NCBI RefSeq assembly: GCF_030012215.1
Contig: NZ_JASCXX010000015.1
Location: forward strand, 62,001-126,000
DNA: 64,000 nucleotides
Source: Anaerobaca lacustris
Lineage (GTDB): Bacteria > Planctomycetota > Phycisphaerae > Sedimentisphaerales > Anaerobacaceae
Direction: 5' to 3'
Both the position numbers and the translations under genes were made by a program. Position 1 is the stretch's first letter; each line of letters opens with the position of its first letter. The notes under the pieces were generated by a model. That model did no database searches. It saw only the letters and a list, made by a program, of their open reading frames with translations, and was not told where the DNA came from. Shown here piece after piece: positions 40,307 through 50,189 of the stretch.

Positions 40307-42226
40307 TCAGTCTTGCAGCGAGTGAACGAGCCACTGGTCGGCCGTGATGGCCGCATCGACAAAGTCGACGACGCAGTCGCCGTTCCGATCGCCGATCACC
40401 TTGACATCGCACGGAGCAGCGGGCTCGGCGATGACATCGGGACCGGCCAGGAAGTTGGCCGCGATCTCGGCCGCCGACAGGGCGGTGTCATAGATGCGCA
40501 GTTCGTTGTAGGAACCACAGTACAGCGGATCGCCCCACTGCGAACGCCCGAGCCAGACGTTGTTGTCAATGAACTCGTTCAGCATGACCGGGGTCTTGTA
40601 GGCGCCGATGATCGTGCCGTTGATGTACAGCTTGACGATGCCGGCGATGTCATCATGTACCTGGGTGACCAGAACCTCTTCGCCGGCGGCAAGCTTGCCG
40701 CTGTCGGTCATCGGCATGTTATGCTGAGAGCCGAGACGACGGTACTCCAGCAGCAGTGAGCGCGAGCCGCTATCGGGCGTGACATAGAAATACGTCGTCT
40801 GGTCGCCGGAGTTGGAGACATCTTCGCCGCCATTGGAGGTGCCCATGTCATAGATACGCTGCCAGACCGCATCGGTGCCGTCCCAGGTGGTCCAGCATTC
40901 AATGGTCATCTGCGTCAGTGGCGAGATGATCCCGTTGGGCAGGTCGATGTAGTCACCGGCCGCGGCGTTGTTGGAGTTCTGCGAGCCGTCGTTGGCCAGA
41001 GTCGCCTGGCCGTCGGCGATGACGGCGTTGCCCGTACCGTTCATCAGGGTCGCATCGGCGCCGCCGACCACGTCCGGAATCGTCACACCGTCGGCGCTCT
41101 CATCGAAGGTCCAGCGGTGGATCAGACCCGTCTGGATGTCGAGGAACATCAGCGGCGAGGTGGTCGAGCCGTTCTCGTTGGTCACGACGCAGTAGTAGTA
41201 GCCCTCGTCGTCGATCGTTGCGCCGGCGACGTTAAGCACCGAATCCACGCCTTCGGGCAGCGGAACGTCATTCAGTTCGAAGCCCATCATGATGACCTTC
41301 TCACGGTACCATTGATAGCTCAGTTCGCCTGCGGCCGCACTGGTGGCTTCGCAGACGAGTTGGGCATCGCCACCCGGAGCGACGGCGTCGCCCTGGGCCT
41401 TGGTGATCAGCGGGCGGCCGTGCTGCGTGGTCAGGCTCCAGACGGTGCCTTCTTCGCCATTCGTGTCAACACGCCAGTAGTAGGTGGTCTCGAAACCGAA
41501 GTCCACACCCAGAACGCCGACCTCGAGCGAGGTTTCGGTCAGGCCGTCGGCGATCATCTCGAGCGCTTCGGGATCGGTGCCGACGTAGACGCTGTAGGCC
41601 GGATCTTCGATCGTGGCCGGAGCGCCCCAGCTCAGGGTCCCGCTCATGACGCCCGCGGCGCCGTCGGCCGGGTTCGGCTTGTTGGCCTTACTGGGATGGG
41701 TGGCAAAGGTGACCTCATCCGGCAGCACGATGATCCCTTCGATCCCCGGGCCGGCCACGCCGATCGCCAGGTTGTCGCCGCCGGTGCCTTCCTGCATCAC
41801 CGCCCAGAACGCCATGAGCTGGCCTTCGGTCAGCGACATCGGCTCGGCCTGCTGGCTGGCCATCGAGGTCCAGGCCTGCGAGCCGGTCCAGCCGTCGACG
41901 AAGGCGACCTGCACGGCATCGGCCATGTTGTCGTTCTGGCTGACGAACAGCCGGCTGGAGTCGTCGCTGGCGACATAGAAAGTGTACTCGCCGTCCGCCG
42001 GCACCAGGATGTAGCCGCTCAGCCTCGCGACGTAGTTGTCGGCGATGTCGGCCCATGTCGGTTCGACCAGAATGTCCACCTGGTCGGCGGGGGTGCCGCT
42101 CTGTACGAGAGTGATGGCGGCGTCAATGCTCGCACCGCCCCACCAGATCTCGCGCAGCACGTCGGCGGACGAAACCGCCGAGAGCATCAGACAGACCACT
42201 GTTGCCACTAAAGTTGCTTTCCTCAT
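40307..42226 (-). CDS. large secreted protein: PA14-like + Ig-like + LamG + C-terminal dockerin-like motif
   Basis: 639 residues from ATG 42226, with AGGAGG upstream. A signal peptide is followed by a PA14-like domain (about 20-180; 'WGGASIDAAITLV', 'PTWADIADNYVA'), a fibronectin-like linker, an Ig-like domain (about 280-365), a LamG/concanavalin-like domain (about 370-590) and a single calcium-loop segment 'GDRNGDCVVDFVDA' near the end, typical of planctomycete dockerin-like tails. Probable glycan-binding surface or extracellular protein. First of three tandem relatives. Confidence 0.88.
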   Translation of the reverse strand: MRKATLVATVVCLMLSAVSSADVLREIWWGGASIDAAITLVQSGTPADQVDILVEPTWADIADNYVARLSGYILVPADGEYTFYVASDDSSRLFVSQNDNMADAVQVAFVDGWTGSQAWTSMASQQAEPMSLTEGQLMAFWAVMQEGTGGDNLAIGVAGPGIEGIIVLPDEVTFATHPSKANKPNPADGAAGVMSGTLSWGAPATIEDPAYSVYVGTDPEALEMIADGLTETSLEVGVLGVDFGFETTYYWRVDTNGEEGTVWSLTTQHGRPLITKAQGDAVAPGGDAQLVCEATSAAAGELSYQWYREKVIMMGFELNDVPLPEGVDSVLNVAGATIDDEGYYYCVVTNENGSTTSPLMFLDIQTGLIHRWTFDESADGVTIPDVVGGADATLMNGTGNAVIADGQATLANDGSQNSNNAAAGDYIDLPNGIISPLTQMTIECWTTWDGTDAVWQRIYDMGTSNGGEDVSNSGDQTTYFYVTPDSGSRSLLLEYRRLGSQHNMPMTDSGKLAAGEEVLVTQVHDDIAGIVKLYINGTIIGAYKTPVMLNEFIDNNVWLGRSQWGDPLYCGSYNELRIYDTALSAAEIAANFLAGPDVIAEPAAPCDVKVIGDRNGDCVVDFVDAAITADQWLVHSLQD

Positions 42227-42770
42227 CGTTGATCCTCCTGAAACATTGCACATTTCAAGTCACGTTACAGTACAGTCCCACTTACAACCTGCAACACATT
42301 GCCTGTTCACCGCCGCTCGATTGCCACCTCCTTCCCGTCAATGTCTTGGGCCGACAACGCCCGGATGAGCACTCATGTGTCGAGCCAGGAACGCATGGCC
42401 TCAACGAAACGAGCTCCTCCTTGACCGAGAACGGTCCGATTGTCCAGCAACGACGCGCATCGCTCCGGTCGAGGATCCTGTCGGAGGCGGCTCTTTTCCG
42501 CTCCAGAGCGATTCTTCCTCCAAGGCTATCGACCGAAACACAGTTACTGGACCGGTGCCAATCACTCAAACAGTCTCCGATGGGTTCGTCCGATCTCCGG
42601 CTCGTGGCAGACGCCAGATCTTGCAGGTGATGTGGCTAACGGATTCAACTGCAAGAGGTTACGTCTAATCGGATATTGTTCGGACGGTCGCCTCAGATCG
42701 TGAACAGACAAACACCGCCACAGCAATGCCATGTCTATACTGCCCAATGAGATGCTCCTGCAGGTCGAAT
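42227..42770 (-). promoter_or_regulatory. long conserved leader, copy 1
   Basis: About 545 nt between the predicted start site and the start codon of the first PA14 gene hold no credible gene. Three blocks match leader 2 closely: 42316-42368 (45 of 53 bases, no gaps), 42438-42453 (16 of 16) and 42517-42539 (22 of 23). A CAGGTCGAA sequence sits just after the promoter in all three leaders. Substitutions fall in all codon positions, arguing against a coding cause. Possible structured RNA element. Confidence 0.65.
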
Positions 42771-42776
42771 GCGCTG

Positions 42777-42805
42777 AGTTTATCATAGGCGACCTTCCCA
42801 TTCAA
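42777..42805 (-). promoter_or_regulatory. promoter 1 of the PA14 gene family
   Basis: On the minus strand TTGAAT (42805-42800), a 17-bp spacer and TAAACT (42782-42777), preceded by an A/T-rich tract. It matches promoters 2 and 3 in box type and spacing. Confidence 0.6.
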
Positions 42806-43008
42806 GCAAAAACTGCGGCAAAAAACCGGGACCAACTTGGCCGAATCGCACTTCCGATCTCGCGAGCGATGGTTTTTTCGGACCTTTTGTGTTGCCGCGT
42901 GCGGGTCGTTGCCGTGCAACGACCACGATTCCCATCGGCCTTCGAGGGCCTTGACTTAACCAGGAATCGGGGCGGTGCCGGGGCCGCTCAACCCGGACAC
43001 AAAAAAAC

Positions 43009-43036
43009 GGGGCCCGTACCGGACGGTACGGGCCCC
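43009..43036 (-). terminator. rho-independent terminator of the second PA14 gene
   Basis: GGGGCCCGTACC (43009-43020) and GGTACGGGCCCC (43025-43036) form a perfect 12-bp stem with a 4-nt loop; on the minus strand it ends in a run of seven T. Nearly identical to the hairpin at 46700-46727. Confidence 0.9.
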
Positions 43037-43073
43037 AGGATGCTGCAAAACCACTTCCTACGCGTTGACGCGG

Positions 43074-46010
43074 CTACCAGCTTGACACACCGATCAGCTC
43101 GATCTCGGCGATCTGCATGCTGTTGGCGCTGCCCGGATCGCGAACCGCCGGGAACAGAATCTGATAGCTGGTGTACGCCACATCGTTGTCAAAGGTGATC
43201 GGTGTGACGTTCTTGGTGAAGCGCGGCCACGCGGTCTCACCGGCGAAATCAACGACGTCGCCGCTGGCGATCAGCGTGTACGGCCCATCGATCCCGTCGT
43301 TCGAGCCATAGAGCTCGAAGCTGACCGGGTCGCGTTCCACAGCGTCATTGGCCGTGGTCAGAGCGATCCCCGTGACGACGGTGGGGCCGACGGCCGGCGT
43401 GATCTGGACGCCGGTCGGCTCCGTTTCACCCTTGAAGTGCAGGTACTTGGTGGCGACGTCGTTGTCGAACGCCAGGTTCGGCGTCTCGGCACCGGGCCAA
43501 TCGCCGTCGTTCGGAACGCCCACGATCTCATCAGCCGGACTGGTGACGTCGGCGAGCACGTTGTGGCTCATCGGCGTGCCGACGCTGATCGTGACGCTGA
43601 CCGTACCACTGCCGGTTGCCGGGGCATCCGGCGTACCTGCGCCGACGACGATCTTGGCAACGTTCGCCAGATCGACACCGGCCAACCCGGCCAGCGGGAT
43701 GTTCCAGTTCTGCGTGCTGACGAGCTGTGTTGCCGCCTCGTCCGGATGGGCGACCACGGCCACCTGTCCGGCTGCGTCTTCGACGGCCACGTACAGACCG
43801 GCCGCATCGTTGGCGGGCATCGCCACGCCGATCGCTTCGGCCGTCCACTCGCCCTCGACATCGCCTGTAGTGGCAACCTCAGAGAACTGGGCAACCAACG
43901 GACTGCCGGAGGTATGGCTGGTCACGGCCAGACCGATGAGCACCGGATCTTCCATAACGACTTCACGAGCGCCGCCCAGTTGCAGCCACTCTTCGCCGTC
44001 GGCGGAGATGAACCCGGAGATGTCGTTGCCCACGCGCTCGACTTTGACGTAATACGGCGACGTGACCGCGCTGGTCGCGTCGTTGTTCACCGAATCGATG
44101 TTGGCTGAGACACGACCCTGGAACGAGGCGCCGTTGCCGCCACCGGCGGTGATCACGGTCATCGAGTGAGCCGAACCGGCGGCCGTGCTCTGGCGGACCA
44201 TCACGCCGGCCTTGGCCCATTCGTTGGTGATGTTGGTCATGCTGTCGACGCGAGCGACGATCGTGCCGTCGCCGGCAAGCGTCTTGTAGACGTAGCGGAA
44301 CTGATCCGCCGTGCCCCAGATGTCGGCGCCGGCGCCGCCGATGGTGATCACGCCGTCTGCCTCAGCGAAGCCGACCGGGTTGCCGCTGAAGGCCACGCGG
44401 AGGGTGTCGGGGGCATAGGCCGTCAGGTCCGCCCCGTCCATGTCCACTTCCATCGCATTGCCGTCTTCGTCGTAGACGAGTGTGGCCGCTGCGACGGGCA
44501 CGAATTCGGCCGTCGTGAAGCTCCAGGCATCGCCTGCCCAGACATCGACGCCGTCGAACTCATCGACCTGCCAGGCGTAGGGCATGCCGTAGATCAGGTC
44601 GGCGGCAAAGCTGCTGCCTTCGACCGTGGTGACCTCACCGTTGACGGTCACGTCGCTGGAGACCGCGTTGCGACCGGCCTGCCAACTGAGAACGCTCGCG
44701 GGATCCACACCCGTCGCGCCGTTGGACGGGCTTGGGAAGCGTGCGTGGGCCGGGACGTAGGTCATCGCCACATTCGTCAGACCCGAATCCGGGAACAAAC
44801 CGCCCCAGGTCGTGTTGATCGTCAGGCGGACGAACTTGGCCCCGATGCCGGCCATGTCGATAACGGTTTCGGCGGCCTGAGCGAGCTCGACGTCCCCGAA
44901 GACCATCCAATCATCGCCATCAGCCGAGTACTCGATCGTGACGTCCTTGGCGCCGTAGCCGAGCAGGGCTTCGAACTGGGTGTTCGAGTTGAAGATCGCC
45001 ATGTCGTACAGCTTGTAGACGCGCGGCAACTCGAACTGGATGTACAGAGCCTCGCCCTCGGGCGGAGCGGCCAGCCACTGGTCGGTGGCCTCGTTCGAGA
45101 TCACGCCGTTGACGGCCTTCTCCGGACCGGAGCCTTCCTGTGGTGTGCCGTTGCTCGTGGCGACGACGTTCTGCACGGCGAAGGTCATCGGTTCGGTGGT
45201 GAAGCTCCAGACGAAGCCTTGGCCGCCGGGAACATCGACGCGCCAGTAATAGGTTGTACCGAAATCGAGATCGATTCCAGCGGTTCCGACGAACGCTTCG
45301 GCCTCAACGATGCCTTCGGCCACCAAAGCCAGATCGCCCGGATCGGTGCCGAAGTAGAGGTCATAGATCGCGTCTTCCGCGTCCTCATCGGGCATATACC
45401 AACTTGCGACGGCCGTGATGACACCGGTGGCGCCGTTTGCCGGAGAGATCACCTTTGCCTTGATCGGCGCGGTCACCTCATACTCGGTGACGAACAGGTC
45501 GCCGGGGATGAGGGTGATGGCCTCGACGCCGGGGCCGGTCCAGCCCCAGTCTTGGCCGTCGCCGCCGCCGCCTTCCTGCATGATGCCGACGATGGCCAGA
45601 ACCTGGCCCTCTTCGAGCATCATCGGTGCGGCCTTCTGGCTGGCGTACTTGGTCCACTCTTGCGAGGCGGTCCAGCCGTCCACAAAGGCGACCATCTCGG
45701 CGTTGGCCGGATTGTCATCCTGGCTCACGTACAGCCTCTGGTAGTCATCGCCGGAGATATAGAAGGTGTACTCGCCGGTGGCCGGGATGGTCAGCCAGCC
45801 GCTCATCTTGGCGACGTAGTTGTCGGCGATGTCCACCCAGGTCGGGTTCTCCAGGACGTCGATCTGGTCGGCGGGTGTTCCGCTGTTGACCAGCGCGATG
45901 GCCTCATCGATGCTTGCGCCGCCCCACCAGATCTCTCGCAACACGGCCGCCGACGACACCGTCGACAGTACCAGAGACACCAACAGCACTAACAATACAG
46001 ACTTCTTCAT
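43074..46010 (-). CDS. large secreted PA14 + discoidin-like + DUF1349-like protein
   Basis: 978 residues from ATG 46010, with AGGAGG upstream. After a signal peptide comes a PA14-like domain (about 20-175), a fibronectin-like linker, an F5/8 type C-like domain (about 275-420; 'ATSNGTPQEG' and 'FELPRVYKLYDMAIFN'), a linker, a beta-sandwich of DUF1349-like style ('RYVYKTLAGDGTIVARVDSM', residues about 560-720), and a second discoidin-like domain at the C-terminus. Extracellular carbohydrate binding is likely; no catalytic motif was seen. Confidence 0.87.
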   Translation of the reverse strand: MKKSVLLVLLVSLVLSTVSSAAVLREIWWGGASIDEAIALVNSGTPADQIDVLENPTWVDIADNYVAKMSGWLTIPATGEYTFYISGDDYQRLYVSQDDNPANAEMVAFVDGWTASQEWTKYASQKAAPMMLEEGQVLAIVGIMQEGGGGDGQDWGWTGPGVEAITLIPGDLFVTEYEVTAPIKAKVISPANGATGVITAVASWYMPDEDAEDAIYDLYFGTDPGDLALVAEGIVEAEAFVGTAGIDLDFGTTYYWRVDVPGGQGFVWSFTTEPMTFAVQNVVATSNGTPQEGSGPEKAVNGVISNEATDQWLAAPPEGEALYIQFELPRVYKLYDMAIFNSNTQFEALLGYGAKDVTIEYSADGDDWMVFGDVELAQAAETVIDMAGIGAKFVRLTINTTWGGLFPDSGLTNVAMTYVPAHARFPSPSNGATGVDPASVLSWQAGRNAVSSDVTVNGEVTTVEGSSFAADLIYGMPYAWQVDEFDGVDVWAGDAWSFTTAEFVPVAAATLVYDEDGNAMEVDMDGADLTAYAPDTLRVAFSGNPVGFAEADGVITIGGAGADIWGTADQFRYVYKTLAGDGTIVARVDSMTNITNEWAKAGVMVRQSTAAGSAHSMTVITAGGGNGASFQGRVSANIDSVNNDATSAVTSPYYVKVERVGNDISGFISADGEEWLQLGGAREVVMEDPVLIGLAVTSHTSGSPLVAQFSEVATTGDVEGEWTAEAIGVAMPANDAAGLYVAVEDAAGQVAVVAHPDEAATQLVSTQNWNIPLAGLAGVDLANVAKIVVGAGTPDAPATGSGTVSVTISVGTPMSHNVLADVTSPADEIVGVPNDGDWPGAETPNLAFDNDVATKYLHFKGETEPTGVQITPAVGPTVVTGIALTTANDAVERDPVSFELYGSNDGIDGPYTLIASGDVVDFAGETAWPRFTKNVTPITFDNDVAYTSYQILFPAVRDPGSANSMQIAEIELIGVSSW

Positions 46011-46546
46011 AACACGTCCTCCTCGGACTCATTACAATGTTGTTTCGATTACCACACACTCCTTCATGCAATGCAGATGTCCCTTTGCTCGATGGCTACC
46101 TCCTTCCTGTCACTGCCTTGGGCCAACGGCGCCCGGATGAACGTTGTCGGGCCAGCAAGGCGCATGGCCTGGACGAACGAGATCCTCCCCCGTCGAGAGC
46201 AGTTCGATTGTCCAGCAACGAAAGGGTTCGCTGCGGTCGAGGGTCCTGCCGGAGACCGGCTCTGTCCCGCTCGGGAGCCGTTGTTTCCAGCGATTTCCTC
46301 CAAGGCCATCGACCGAAACGCGGTCACTGGACCCGTTACAATCACTCATCTCTCTCCAATATCTCGTCCGGACTCCAGACGGCGCTGGGACCCATTCTCT
46401 CGCGGATGTGGCTAAGCCGCTTTTTCGCAAGGAGTTACACATATGCGAATCCTTGCGTCGGGCGGACTCCTCCGTTGGAGAACGAACCAACACCGTAGCA
46501 ACACCGTTGCCAGACTGCAAAATGAGATGTCAGTCGCAGGTCGAAC
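46011..46546 (-). promoter_or_regulatory. long conserved leader, copy 2
   Basis: About 535 nt without a credible gene between the promoter and the second PA14 gene. It shares blocks 46088-46140, 46206-46221 and 46297-46319 with leader 1, and CACACACTCCT (46053-46063) and GTCCTCCTCGGAC (46016-46028) with leader 3. The last, read on the minus strand, is GTCC-GAGGA-GGAC, a small hairpin that contains the Shine-Dalgarno sequence. Confidence 0.65.
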
Positions 46547-46552
46547 ACAACG

Positions 46553-46581
46553 AGTCTACCATAAACGAGCGTCCCACTCAA
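46553..46581 (-). promoter_or_regulatory. promoter 2 of the PA14 gene family
   Basis: On the minus strand TTGAGT (46581-46576), a 17-bp spacer and TAGACT (46558-46553), as in promoter 1. Confidence 0.6.
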
Positions 46582-46699
46582 GCACTGGTTAGGGAAAAAA
46601 TATGAGGTAAATGGGTGCCCGCGGAGCGTTGTCCGATCGGGCTTTGAGGGTAGGGCGCCGGGGCCCATGCGGCCCCGGCTTGGATCGAGACAAAGACAG

Positions 46700-46727
46700 G
46701 GGGCCCGTACCGGTGGGTACGGGCCCC
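46700..46727 (-). terminator. terminator of the third PA14 gene
   Basis: GGGGCCCGTACC (46700-46711) and GGTACGGGCCCC (46716-46727) form a perfect stem with a 4-nt loop. The following T-run is weak. The stem is the same as at 43009. Confidence 0.8.
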
Positions 46728-46766
46728 AGGATGCTGCAAAAAGCCGCTACTGTGTGGCTGTCGCTG

Positions 46767-49643
46767 CTACCAGGAGGCGACACCGATCAGCTCGATCTCG
46801 GCGATCTGCATGCTGTTGACCGAGCCGCCGACCGGACCGCGAATGTCCGGGAACAGAAGCTGGTAGCTGGTGTACACCACGTCGTTTTCGAACGTGATCG
46901 GCGTGGCGTTCTTGGTGAAGCGAGGCCACTCGACCTCCCCGGCGAAGTCGAGGATGTCGCCGCTGGCGATCAGGGTGTACGGCCCATCGATCCCGTCGTT
47001 CGAGCCATAGAGCTCGAAGGTGATGGGATCGCGTCCGGGCACGTCATTGGCCGTCGTCAGTGTCAGGCCCGTGACCACGGTCGGGCCAACGGCGGGCGTG
47101 ACGCAAATGCCGCTGGGCCCTTCATCGCCCTTGAAATGCAGGAACTTGGTGGCGACGTTGTTGTCGATCGCCAGTGCCGGATGCTCGCCTCCGGGCCAGT
47201 CGCCGTCGTTCGGAACGCCTTGGACCGCGTCGCCCGGACCGGTGACGTCGGCCAGCACGTTATGGCTGATCGGCGTGCCGATGCTGATCGAGTTGACCAT
47301 GATCACACCGGCGCCGTCGGCGGCCGGATCGAGCCGGTTACCGGCGCCAATCGCCAAGCTCGCGACATTGGCCAGATCCACACCGGCGATGTCTCCCAGC
47401 GCCAGGTTCCACGTCTGCGGGCTGGAGTGCATCCAGTACTCGCCGGGAATGACCGTGACTTCGTCAAACCCCGGGCCGGTCCAGCCGAAGTCCTGACCGT
47501 CGCCGCCGCCGCCCTCCTGCATGATGCCGTAGACGGCCAGGACCTGGCCCTCTTCGAGCATCATTGGCTCGGCCCTCTGGCTGGCGTATGTGGTCCACGC
47601 CTGCGAAGCGGTCCAGCCGTCCACATAGGCGACGAGTACGGCGTTGGCCGGATTGTCGTCCTGACTTACGTACATCCTCTGGGAGTCATCGCCGGCGACG
47701 TAGAAGGTGTACTCGCCAGTGGCCGGGATAGTCAGCCAGCCGCTCATCCTGGCGACGTAGTTGTCGGCAATATCCACCCAGGTCGGCTCCTCGAGGACGT
47801 CCATCTGATTCGCGGGGACACCGCTGTTGACGAGCGCGATGGCCTCATCGATACTCGCGTCACCCCACCAGATCTCCCGCAACAGGCCGGGAGCCGCCGG
47901 CATGGTCGGCGTCGGGTTCGGGATGACGGCCACTTGCCCGTCCATGTCCTCGATGGCGACATAGATGTCGGCGGCGTCCTTGGTGGCGCCCCTGAAGGCC
48001 ACCCGCAGGGTGCTGGCGCCGTAGGCGGCCAGATCCATGCCGTCCTCCGCGGTCAGAGCGACCTCGCTATAGAACGGCTCGATCGAGTTGTCGTATTCCA
48101 GGATCAGTCCGCTGGCGATGGTGTCGAACTCACGCGTGGTGAAGCTCAGCACATCGCCTTCCCAGATGGCGGCGCCGTCGTCGGCGTCCACCTTCCAGTA
48201 GTACGGCATGCCGTACACCAAGTCGGGGGCGAAGCTGTTTCCGGCGACCACGCCCGCCAGCGCGAGTTCGTCGGTGCCCACATAGACGTTATGGGCAACC
48301 GCGCCGCGTCCAGCCTGCCAACTGAGAACGACGTCCGGGTCGACCCCCGTCGCGCCGTCGGCCAGGCTTGGGAAACGCACGTAGGCGGGAACATAGGTCA
48401 TCCGGACTTCGGTCAGACCGGAATCGGCAAACAGACCGCCCCAGTTCGAGTTGATCGTCAGACGGATGAACCTGGCTCCGATGCCGTCCAGATTGATGGT
48501 TGTCTCGGCGGCCCGAGCCAGTTCCACGTCGCCGAAGACCTCCCATGCGTCACCGTCGGCAGAGTATTCGATGGTGACGTCCTTGGCGCCATAGCCCAGC
48601 AGGGCTTCGAACTGCGTGTTCGAGTTGAAGACCGCCATGTCGTACATTTTGTGGACCCGCGGCAATTCGAACTGAATCCAGAGGACCTCGCCTTCGGGCG
48701 GAGTGGCCAGCCATTGATCCGTGGCTTCCGTCGAGATCCTGCCGTCAACGGCCTTTGCCGGTTCGGAACCCTCCTGCGGGGTGCCGTTGCTTGTGGCGAT
48801 GATGTTCGGTACGGCGAACGCCATCGCCTCGGTGGTGAAGCTCCAGACCCGGCCTGGGGTGCCGTCTGCGTCGACGCGCCAATAGTAGGTCGTTCCGAAG
48901 TCGAGCTCGATCCCGGCTGTTCCGCCGAACACGGTCGTTTCGACGATGCCTTCGGCGAACACGAACAAATTGTCCGGATCGATGCCGACGTACAGGTCGT
49001 ACACCACGCCCTCGGCACCGTCGGGCATGTACCAGTTCGCGACAGCGTCAATGACGCCGGTAGCGCCGTCTGCCGGCGTAACCACTCTCGCCTTGGCCGG
49101 CGCGGTCACCTCATAATCGATGACGAACAGGTCGCCGGGGATGAGCGTGATGGCTTCGACTCCGGGACCGGTCCAGCCCCAGTCCTGACCGTCGCCGCCA
49201 CCGCCTTCCTGCATGATGCCGTAGACGGCCAGGACCTGGCCTTCCTGGAGCATCATCGGCTGGGCCTTCTGGCTGGCGTACTTGGTCCACTCTTGCGAGG
49301 CGGTCCAGCCGTCCACGAAGGCGACCATCTCGGCGTTGGCCGGATTGTCGTCCTGGCTGACATACAGTCTCTGGTAGTCATCGCCGGAAACATAGAAGGT
49401 GTACTCGCCGGTGGCCGGGATGGTCAGCCAGCCGCTCATCCTGGCGACGTAGTTGTCGGCGATGTCCACCCAGGTCGGCTCATCCAGGATGTCGATCTGA
49501 TCGGCGGGCGTTCCGCTGTTGACCAGCGCGATGGCTTGGTCAATGTTTGCCCCGACCCACCAGATCTCTCGCAATACCTCGGCCGATGACACCGTCGACA
49601 GTGCCAGAGACACCAACAGCATCAACAATATTGACTTCTTCAT
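46767..49643 (-). CDS. large secreted protein with two PA14-like domains and discoidin-like domains
   Basis: 958 residues from ATG 49643 with GAGGAGG upstream. The first 550 residues are colinear with the second gene (PA14-like, fibronectin-like, F5/8 type C-like). In place of its DUF1349-like domain there is a second PA14-like copy ('WWGDASIDEAIALVNSG', about 610-760), and it shares the C-terminal discoidin-like domain. Paralogue of the second gene; function as for that protein. Confidence 0.87.
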   Translation of the reverse strand: MKKSILLMLLVSLALSTVSSAEVLREIWWVGANIDQAIALVNSGTPADQIDILDEPTWVDIADNYVARMSGWLTIPATGEYTFYVSGDDYQRLYVSQDDNPANAEMVAFVDGWTASQEWTKYASQKAQPMMLQEGQVLAVYGIMQEGGGGDGQDWGWTGPGVEAITLIPGDLFVIDYEVTAPAKARVVTPADGATGVIDAVANWYMPDGAEGVVYDLYVGIDPDNLFVFAEGIVETTVFGGTAGIELDFGTTYYWRVDADGTPGRVWSFTTEAMAFAVPNIIATSNGTPQEGSEPAKAVDGRISTEATDQWLATPPEGEVLWIQFELPRVHKMYDMAVFNSNTQFEALLGYGAKDVTIEYSADGDAWEVFGDVELARAAETTINLDGIGARFIRLTINSNWGGLFADSGLTEVRMTYVPAYVRFPSLADGATGVDPDVVLSWQAGRGAVAHNVYVGTDELALAGVVAGNSFAPDLVYGMPYYWKVDADDGAAIWEGDVLSFTTREFDTIASGLILEYDNSIEPFYSEVALTAEDGMDLAAYGASTLRVAFRGATKDAADIYVAIEDMDGQVAVIPNPTPTMPAAPGLLREIWWGDASIDEAIALVNSGVPANQMDVLEEPTWVDIADNYVARMSGWLTIPATGEYTFYVAGDDSQRMYVSQDDNPANAVLVAYVDGWTASQAWTTYASQRAEPMMLEEGQVLAVYGIMQEGGGGDGQDFGWTGPGFDEVTVIPGEYWMHSSPQTWNLALGDIAGVDLANVASLAIGAGNRLDPAADGAGVIMVNSISIGTPISHNVLADVTGPGDAVQGVPNDGDWPGGEHPALAIDNNVATKFLHFKGDEGPSGICVTPAVGPTVVTGLTLTTANDVPGRDPITFELYGSNDGIDGPYTLIASGDILDFAGEVEWPRFTKNATPITFENDVVYTSYQLLFPDIRGPVGGSVNSMQIAEIELIGVASW

Positions 49644-50153
49644 CACATGTCCTCCTCGGACCATTTGCATTTATGGTTTGGTTGGCACACACTCCTCGAT
49701 ACTCTCCACAGTCCCCTCCGCTCGACGGGCACCTTCATCCTGCCAACAGCCGAGCGACCAGCGGCAGGCCCAAGTGCCCGACAAGGGATGGCGATGTGGC
49801 GGCCCGGACGATGGGTTTCGCTGGCGTGACATGGGCCGGGGGATGGAACCGAATCGCTCACTCTCTCCAACCCTCTGACCCGTGCGTCGCTTCGACCGGA
49901 CCGGCGGCGGTCAAACCACCACCTCCCACAGGCGCGTTCCCGCGTCGATGGATACGGAACACACACGTGTCTCGGCTCTCCCGATGGCCGTCCGCTGTGG
50001 CCGGCGGCGGACCGCTCTCGCTGACGACAGGCCCACAAAGCTCCCGCGCAACTGTCATGCGCATAGCCCTCAGGGCTGAGAAGATGAAACCCGCTCCTGC
50101 CGCAGCGAAAGACTCGCGAGGACCGAAAAGCATTGCTCTATCACAGGTCGAAT
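49644..50153 (-). promoter_or_regulatory. long leader, copy 3 (diverged)
   Basis: About 510 nt without a gene. It shares GTCCTCCTCGGAC (49649-49661), CACACACTCCT (49686-49696), a CTCTCTCCAA tract near 49861 and CAGGTCGAA (50144-50152) with leader 2, but most of its length has diverged from the other two. Confidence 0.5.
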
Positions 50154-50160
50154 TACCCTA

Positions 50161-50189
50161 ATTGTAATGCACGGACCGAAGGGGTTCAA
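50161..50189 (-). promoter_or_regulatory. promoter 3 of the PA14 gene family
   Basis: On the minus strand TTGAAC (50189-50184), a 17-bp spacer and TACAAT (50166-50161), with an A/T-rich tract directly upstream, as in promoter 1. Confidence 0.65.

Follow-up and report, generated by a model that had tools for sequence, protein, structure and literature searches.

A start-codon-less Shine-Dalgarno element about 100 nt before secreted-protein genes of a planctomycete: a possible docking site for 30S subunits

We analyzed a window of 64,000 nucleotides from Anaerobaca lacustris (contig NZ_JASCXX010000015.1, positions 62,001 to 126,000), which is part of a 5.7 Mb planctomycete genome. Three consecutive genes in this window (genes 1 to 3) encode large secreted proteins with PA14 domains, and each follows a long leader (leaders 1 to 3). 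Leaders 1 and 2 carry AAGGAGGT. It is a full-length Shine-Dalgarno (SD) sequence that lies about 100 nt upstream of the gene and is not followed by a start codon. This element could be a docking site where a 30S ribosomal subunit stabilizes the long messenger RNA (mRNA), similar to the STAB-SD of cry3A in Bacillus thuringiensis. The sequence comparisons leave this reading about evenly poised.

The element and its position in the leaders

The three genes present the following versions of the element.

42326..42333, minus strand: element AAGGAGGT of leader 1, start-codon-less SD, -20.2 kcal/mol with the 16S tail
46098..46105, minus strand: element AAGGAGGT of leader 2, start-codon-less SD, -17.2 kcal/mol
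49731..49738, minus strand: ATGAAGGT of leader 3, a decayed element that has dropped out of the leader's strongest anti-SD sites

The 16S ribosomal RNA of this genome ends in GGATCACCTCCTTTCT, with the tail ACCTCCTT. Therefore, AAGGAGGT is a perfect complement, with eight of eight bases paired. It is the top 8-mer of 20 PA14 leaders, found in 16 of them with 0.5 expected (these sequences are related). Likewise, in 16 of the 20 related leaders, no other site in the 620 nt upstream pairs as strongly with the anti-SD as the element does (-17 to -23 kcal/mol). The SDs that belong to the genes themselves are far weaker (-8.5 to -12.4 kcal/mol).

Across 11 aligned leaders, the element lies 88-107 nt from the ATG, and the predicted transcript start lies 231-495 nt before it. 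A second subgroup has leaders of about 300-350 nt, with promoters that far upstream, and there the element stays near -90. Since the distance to the ATG is constant and the distance to the start is variable, the element is, by its position, tied to the gene and not to the promoter. This points to a role at the level of RNA or translation. No ATG, GTG or TTG is present 4-11 nt after the element in the PA14 leaders, so by sequence evidence it does not direct translation. Stop codons lie between the element and the ATG in most of them.

The identity between orthologous pairs is not uniform along the leader. The first 30 nt mostly show values of 0.80-1.0, and the region from -130 to -80, which contains GGAAGGAGGT, shows 0.75-0.92. 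The leader middle has an identity of 0.49-0.66, against 0.60-0.76 at fourfold sites. Unlike those two regions, it is no better conserved than fourfold sites.

A further observation concerns leaders L084, L085, L087 and L110. They present CTTCCTT 4-5 nt before the element, which could pair with AAGGAGG into a hairpin, a possible switch. For L085 and L110, the opening cost is 8.6 and 7.6 kcal/mol; L084 would need only 2.3.

Recurrence before other secreted-protein genes

We searched for the pattern AAGGAGGT-N60..90-GGAGG-N4..10-ATGA, with the reversed pattern as control. The close relatives used were metagenome-assembled genomes labelled Phycisphaerae, Phycisphaerales or Sedimentisphaerales. The 61 relatives contain 35 copies of the pattern and 4 of the reversed control; within the genus, these counts are 18 and 0. 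The 161 genomes of the order gave 68 against 15. A variant with another last base mostly matched other genes, some of them of the same architecture.

The genes downstream of the pattern encode a signal peptide in 40 of 45 cases. Because the pattern favours proteins starting with MK or MR, the fair baseline is that of such starts (26 of 41; P 0.01). The enrichment is real but moderate. A start codon is present 4-11 nt after the element in 10 of the 45 loci. Without the ATGA condition, we compared genes in a sample of 1.26 Mb. Sites of -17 kcal/mol or stronger at -75 to -125 are present before 8 of the 146 genes with a signal peptide and before 0 of the 287 other genes (P 1.5e-4, or 0.004 minus the three PA14 genes). 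Throughout, signal peptides and gene starts were called by simple heuristics. The antisense control gave 0 and 1. In the open-access literature, the coverage of which is incomplete, we found no earlier description of such elements in planctomycetes.

The locus, the history of the leaders and their folding

The genes, promoters and leaders of the locus are as follows.

40307..42226, minus strand: gene 1, with signal peptide, PA14, Ig and LamG domains
42227..42770, minus strand: leader 1, 544 nt, predicted 5' end ATTCGACCTG
42233..42239, minus strand: own SD of gene 1, AGGAGGA, -10.8 kcal/mol
42777..42782, minus strand: -10 hexamer TAAACT of the gene 1 promoter, spacer 17 nt
42800..42805, minus strand: -35 hexamer TTGAAT of the gene 1 promoter, predicted from sequence and kept in orthologues
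43008..43037, minus strand: intrinsic terminator 3' of gene 2
43074..46010, minus strand: gene 2, with signal peptide, PA14 and F5/8 type C domains
46011..46546, minus strand: leader 2, 536 nt from predicted start site to ATG
46553..46558, minus strand: -10 hexamer TAGACT of the gene 2 promoter, spacer 17 nt
46576..46581, minus strand: -35 hexamer TTGAGT of the gene 2 promoter
46700..46727, minus strand: terminator-like hairpin 3' of gene 3
46767..49643, minus strand: gene 3, with signal peptide, two PA14 domains and F5/8 type C
49644..50153, minus strand: leader 3, orthologue of leaders L074, L075 and L076, 510 nt by its predicted start
50161..50166, minus strand: -10 hexamer TACAAT of the gene 3 promoter, spacer 17 nt (strict consensus scan)
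50184..50189, minus strand: -35 hexamer TTGAAC of the gene 3 promoter (strict consensus scan)

Given the terminator-like hairpins after genes 2 and 3, each gene is probably a separate transcription unit. An earlier note on this DNA had described leaders of about 0.5 kb before the three secreted-protein genes. The predicted starts and the promoters with 17-nt spacers agree with it. The same note took an absence of homologous leaders before other PA14 genes as a point against its idea, and such leaders exist. Eight related ones measure 551-583 nt from their predicted starts, bar one of 338 nt.

The promoters of the three genes share the general form TTGA(A/G)-17-TA(A/G/C)A(C/A)T, with (A/G)TTCGACCTG 6-7 nt further on. 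Only that of gene 3 passes a strict consensus scan. The promoter and the predicted start sequence are kept in orthologues and paralogues, in genomes of the same genus and in one further genus. TTCGACCTG was rejected as a start motif of general use: in 1.26 Mb, the three window genes are the only ones where it comes after a recognisable promoter. Other genes with the element (L083, L084, L085, L088 and one at G000:C1 near 74337) have predicted transcript starts similar to each other, right after the -10 hexamer: TCG(A/G)CTGCGA and (T)GGCTGCGAGGG.

Leaders 1 and 2 show 71% identity over about 500 nt. The match has an E value of 4e-50, so the similarity is not due to chance, and the blocks quoted in the earlier note were exact (45/53, 16/16 and 22/23). 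In the leader middle, the identity of this pair is 0.71. The two genes have 39% amino acid identity and agree at 0.50 of fourfold sites, and leader 1 shares 0.59 with its own orthologue. The two leaders therefore resemble each other more closely than the genes behind them do, and leader 1 is closer to leader 2 than to its orthologue. By this comparison, most of the blocks are the product of recent leader copying and not of constraint. Leader 2 (46011-46546) is itself a mosaic. Its 5' part resembles leader 1, and its last 130 nt or so resemble leader 3 and the orthologues. Such a mosaic points to gene conversion, with the breakpoint close to the element. In gene 3 (46767-49643), both PA14 copies resemble the PA14 of gene 2, from internal duplication or recombination.

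The leaders gave no match to Rfam at the gathering score and no credible weak match. Their whole-leader fold z-scores against shuffles are scattered (-2.6 to +2.1), and those of 80-nt windows have a mean near zero. Over the last 160 nt, folding is a little weaker than in shuffles (mean z +0.6 to +0.7). In the last 80 nt, the region of the true ribosome-binding site (RBS), the mean is +0.65, with no sign of a sequestered RBS. Column-shuffled RNAalifold, run on 3-4 sequences per subgroup and with low power for covariation, gave no signal that was consistent; among about 33 windows, the lone exception had a z of -3.7. Likewise, 11 aligned 5' ends yield no alifold structure, at low power.

Segment 30-62 of the leader folds with mild stability (mean z about -0.7), which is suggestive of a small 5' structure. 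A possible short hairpin appears by eye at nt 33-58 of W1, L081, W2, L075, L077 and L078. Its arms differ between leaders and are still complementary, as in TTGACAGC/GCTGTCAA of L077 and CACAGC/GCTGTG of L081. We rejected two candidates. The 5' hairpins seen by eye shift register between sequences, and alifold gives none. A long-range closing stem of 5' UUCGACCUG with AGGU...CGAG fails in L082, where ACCGG breaks the pairing without compensation.

A docked 30S subunit, its rivals and known systems

From the sequence of the element, its position, complementarity, conservation and recurrence before secreted-protein genes, we infer 30S binding, processing and stabilization. The full-length SD would dock a non-initiating 30S subunit about 100 nt before the gene. 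There, the subunit would act as a 5' stabilizer, blocking the entry or scanning of a nuclease from the 5' side, and it may additionally help to load the true RBS. The 230-490 nt upstream of the element would be a largely dispensable spacer, perhaps trimmed off. The gene would be shielded, together with the 3' portion of its leader. The set of nucleases found suggests that the hindered enzyme is ribonuclease (RNase) E/G, present in six of six genomes of the genus, and not RNase J. More tentatively, and somewhat short of an even balance, start-codon-less extended SDs at about -100 could be a general 30S-docking device on large secreted-protein mRNAs of Sedimentisphaerales-type planctomycetes. 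It would be protective without RNase J, an independently arisen STAB-SD-like system in an RNase E background.

Several results weigh against a docked, protective 30S subunit. The RNase J model TIGR00649 had no match over the cut-off in any of the six genus genomes. The canonical RNase J mechanism was rejected on this ground, and any protection must work differently from that of cry3A. Leader 3 has lost the element, although its orthologues keep it intact. The accessibility of the element against shuffled context is not significant (mean rank 0.36 and 0.46). The element precedes only a minority of secreted-protein genes, most distant PA14 genes outside the genus lack it, and once the PA14 genes are removed, AAGGAGGT does not rank among the top words in the sample of 1.26 Mb. 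Finally, the pattern with N170..200 is also above its control (36 against 15), with listed sequences that by look are mostly coding or canonical starts. All pattern counts were made by hand; the P values were computed with 70 against 15 and 36 against 13, and they change little.

Leader 3 has its strongest anti-SD site now at GGGAGGTGGTGG, around 49923 (about -280, -17.0 kcal/mol). It is possibly a relocated element.

The main rival of a stabilizing dock is a ribosome standby or loading site. The 30S subunit would bind the strong upstream SD and shift to the weaker true one, with initiation raised and stability unaffected. The element outbinds the gene's own SD by 5-13 kcal/mol from about 100 nt away, which is the standby distance in tisB (PMC7708055), and the last 160 nt are slightly open. 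However, classical standby sites serve a sequestered RBS, and here this region is open if anything. The tisB site, moreover, requires a single-stranded region and 5' structure rather than a perfect SD. We consider this explanation unlikely. A site for an RNA-binding regulator is improbable. AAGGA matches the ANGGA core of a GGA-containing CsrA site, another protein could recognise AAGGAGGT, and the CTTCCTT hairpin could enclose the element. But all eight bases are kept as the exact complement of the anti-SD, and the hairpin is limited to one subgroup.

The earlier note had proposed a structured RNA, such as a riboswitch, spanning the whole leader. The leaders are long and conserved in length, and the single alifold window and the possible covarying hairpin at nt 33-58 could speak for it. 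However, the missing Rfam match, the fold z-scores near those of shuffles, a middle that evolves about like fourfold sites, and L082, which lacks about 210 nt of it, make this quite improbable. What survives of that proposal is the stability element, which would fit as a linear ribosome-binding sequence and not as a fold. We regard translation that starts at the element, be it of an upstream open reading frame or of a protein extended at its N-terminus, as very improbable. In the orthologous genes L132 and L133, an ATG or GTG does follow AAGGAGG by 5 nt and is in frame with the gene. Nevertheless, the PA14 leaders lack such a codon and most have intervening stops. One subgroup has a conserved ATC, which is missing from the other and would be exceptional as a start. 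As an observation apart, L132 (G000:C17:22764-22875) and L133 (G001:C16:257930-258041) could encode an extension of about 30 residues before the signal peptide.

If the 30S-docking reading is true, mRNA protection by idle 30S subunits is not peculiar to bacteria with RNase J, and planctomycetes offer a simple sequence handle on their highly expressed secreted proteins. A strong SD in their genomes can then mark something besides a start. We found little on planctomycete mRNA decay in the open-access literature searched. Leader 3, which has lost the element naturally, can be compared directly with its two intact paralogues.

To our knowledge, the STAB-SD of cry3A from Bacillus thuringiensis is the sole well-studied element of this kind, and it prevents mRNA degradation. 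Its transcript starts at -558 and has a stable 5' end at -129, where the STAB-SD binds 30S and blocks RNase J1 (PMC4113751). The original work is that of Agaisse and Lereclus 1996 and Mathy 2007, as cited in PMC4113751 and PMC13001229. Both systems have a vegetative-type promoter more than 500 nt upstream and a non-translating, SD-like sequence complementary to 16S about 100 nt before the gene. The cry3A element serves a highly produced protein, as the planctomycete one may. In sequence, the likeness claimed is that of the SD itself. In cry3A, the 30S binding, the -129 end and the stabilization are proven and the nuclease is RNase J1, whereas the planctomycete element is known from its sequence and RNase J was not found in the genus genomes. 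Because we looked for this feature and did not find it, we do not class the element as a member of STAB-SD.

Start-codon-less SDs stabilize the mRNAs of cry3A (PMC4113751), ermC and ompA. According to a review, ompA, ermC and lacZ mRNAs owe their stability to a strong SD that needs neither a start codon nor translation, such SDs stabilize mRNAs in E. coli too, and ribosomes hinder the scanning of RNase E (PMC7509114, citing Richards and Belasco 2019). As that review presents these cases, they share protection by a bound 30S subunit, also in a bacterium with RNase E, and they differ in that the subunit sits on the RBS of the gene itself and not on a second site further upstream. The tisB standby site shares the 30S contact about 100 nt upstream of the RBS. 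In contrast, tisB relies on single-stranded RNA and 5' structure for a sequestered RBS (PMC7708055), and the planctomycete leaders present a perfect SD.

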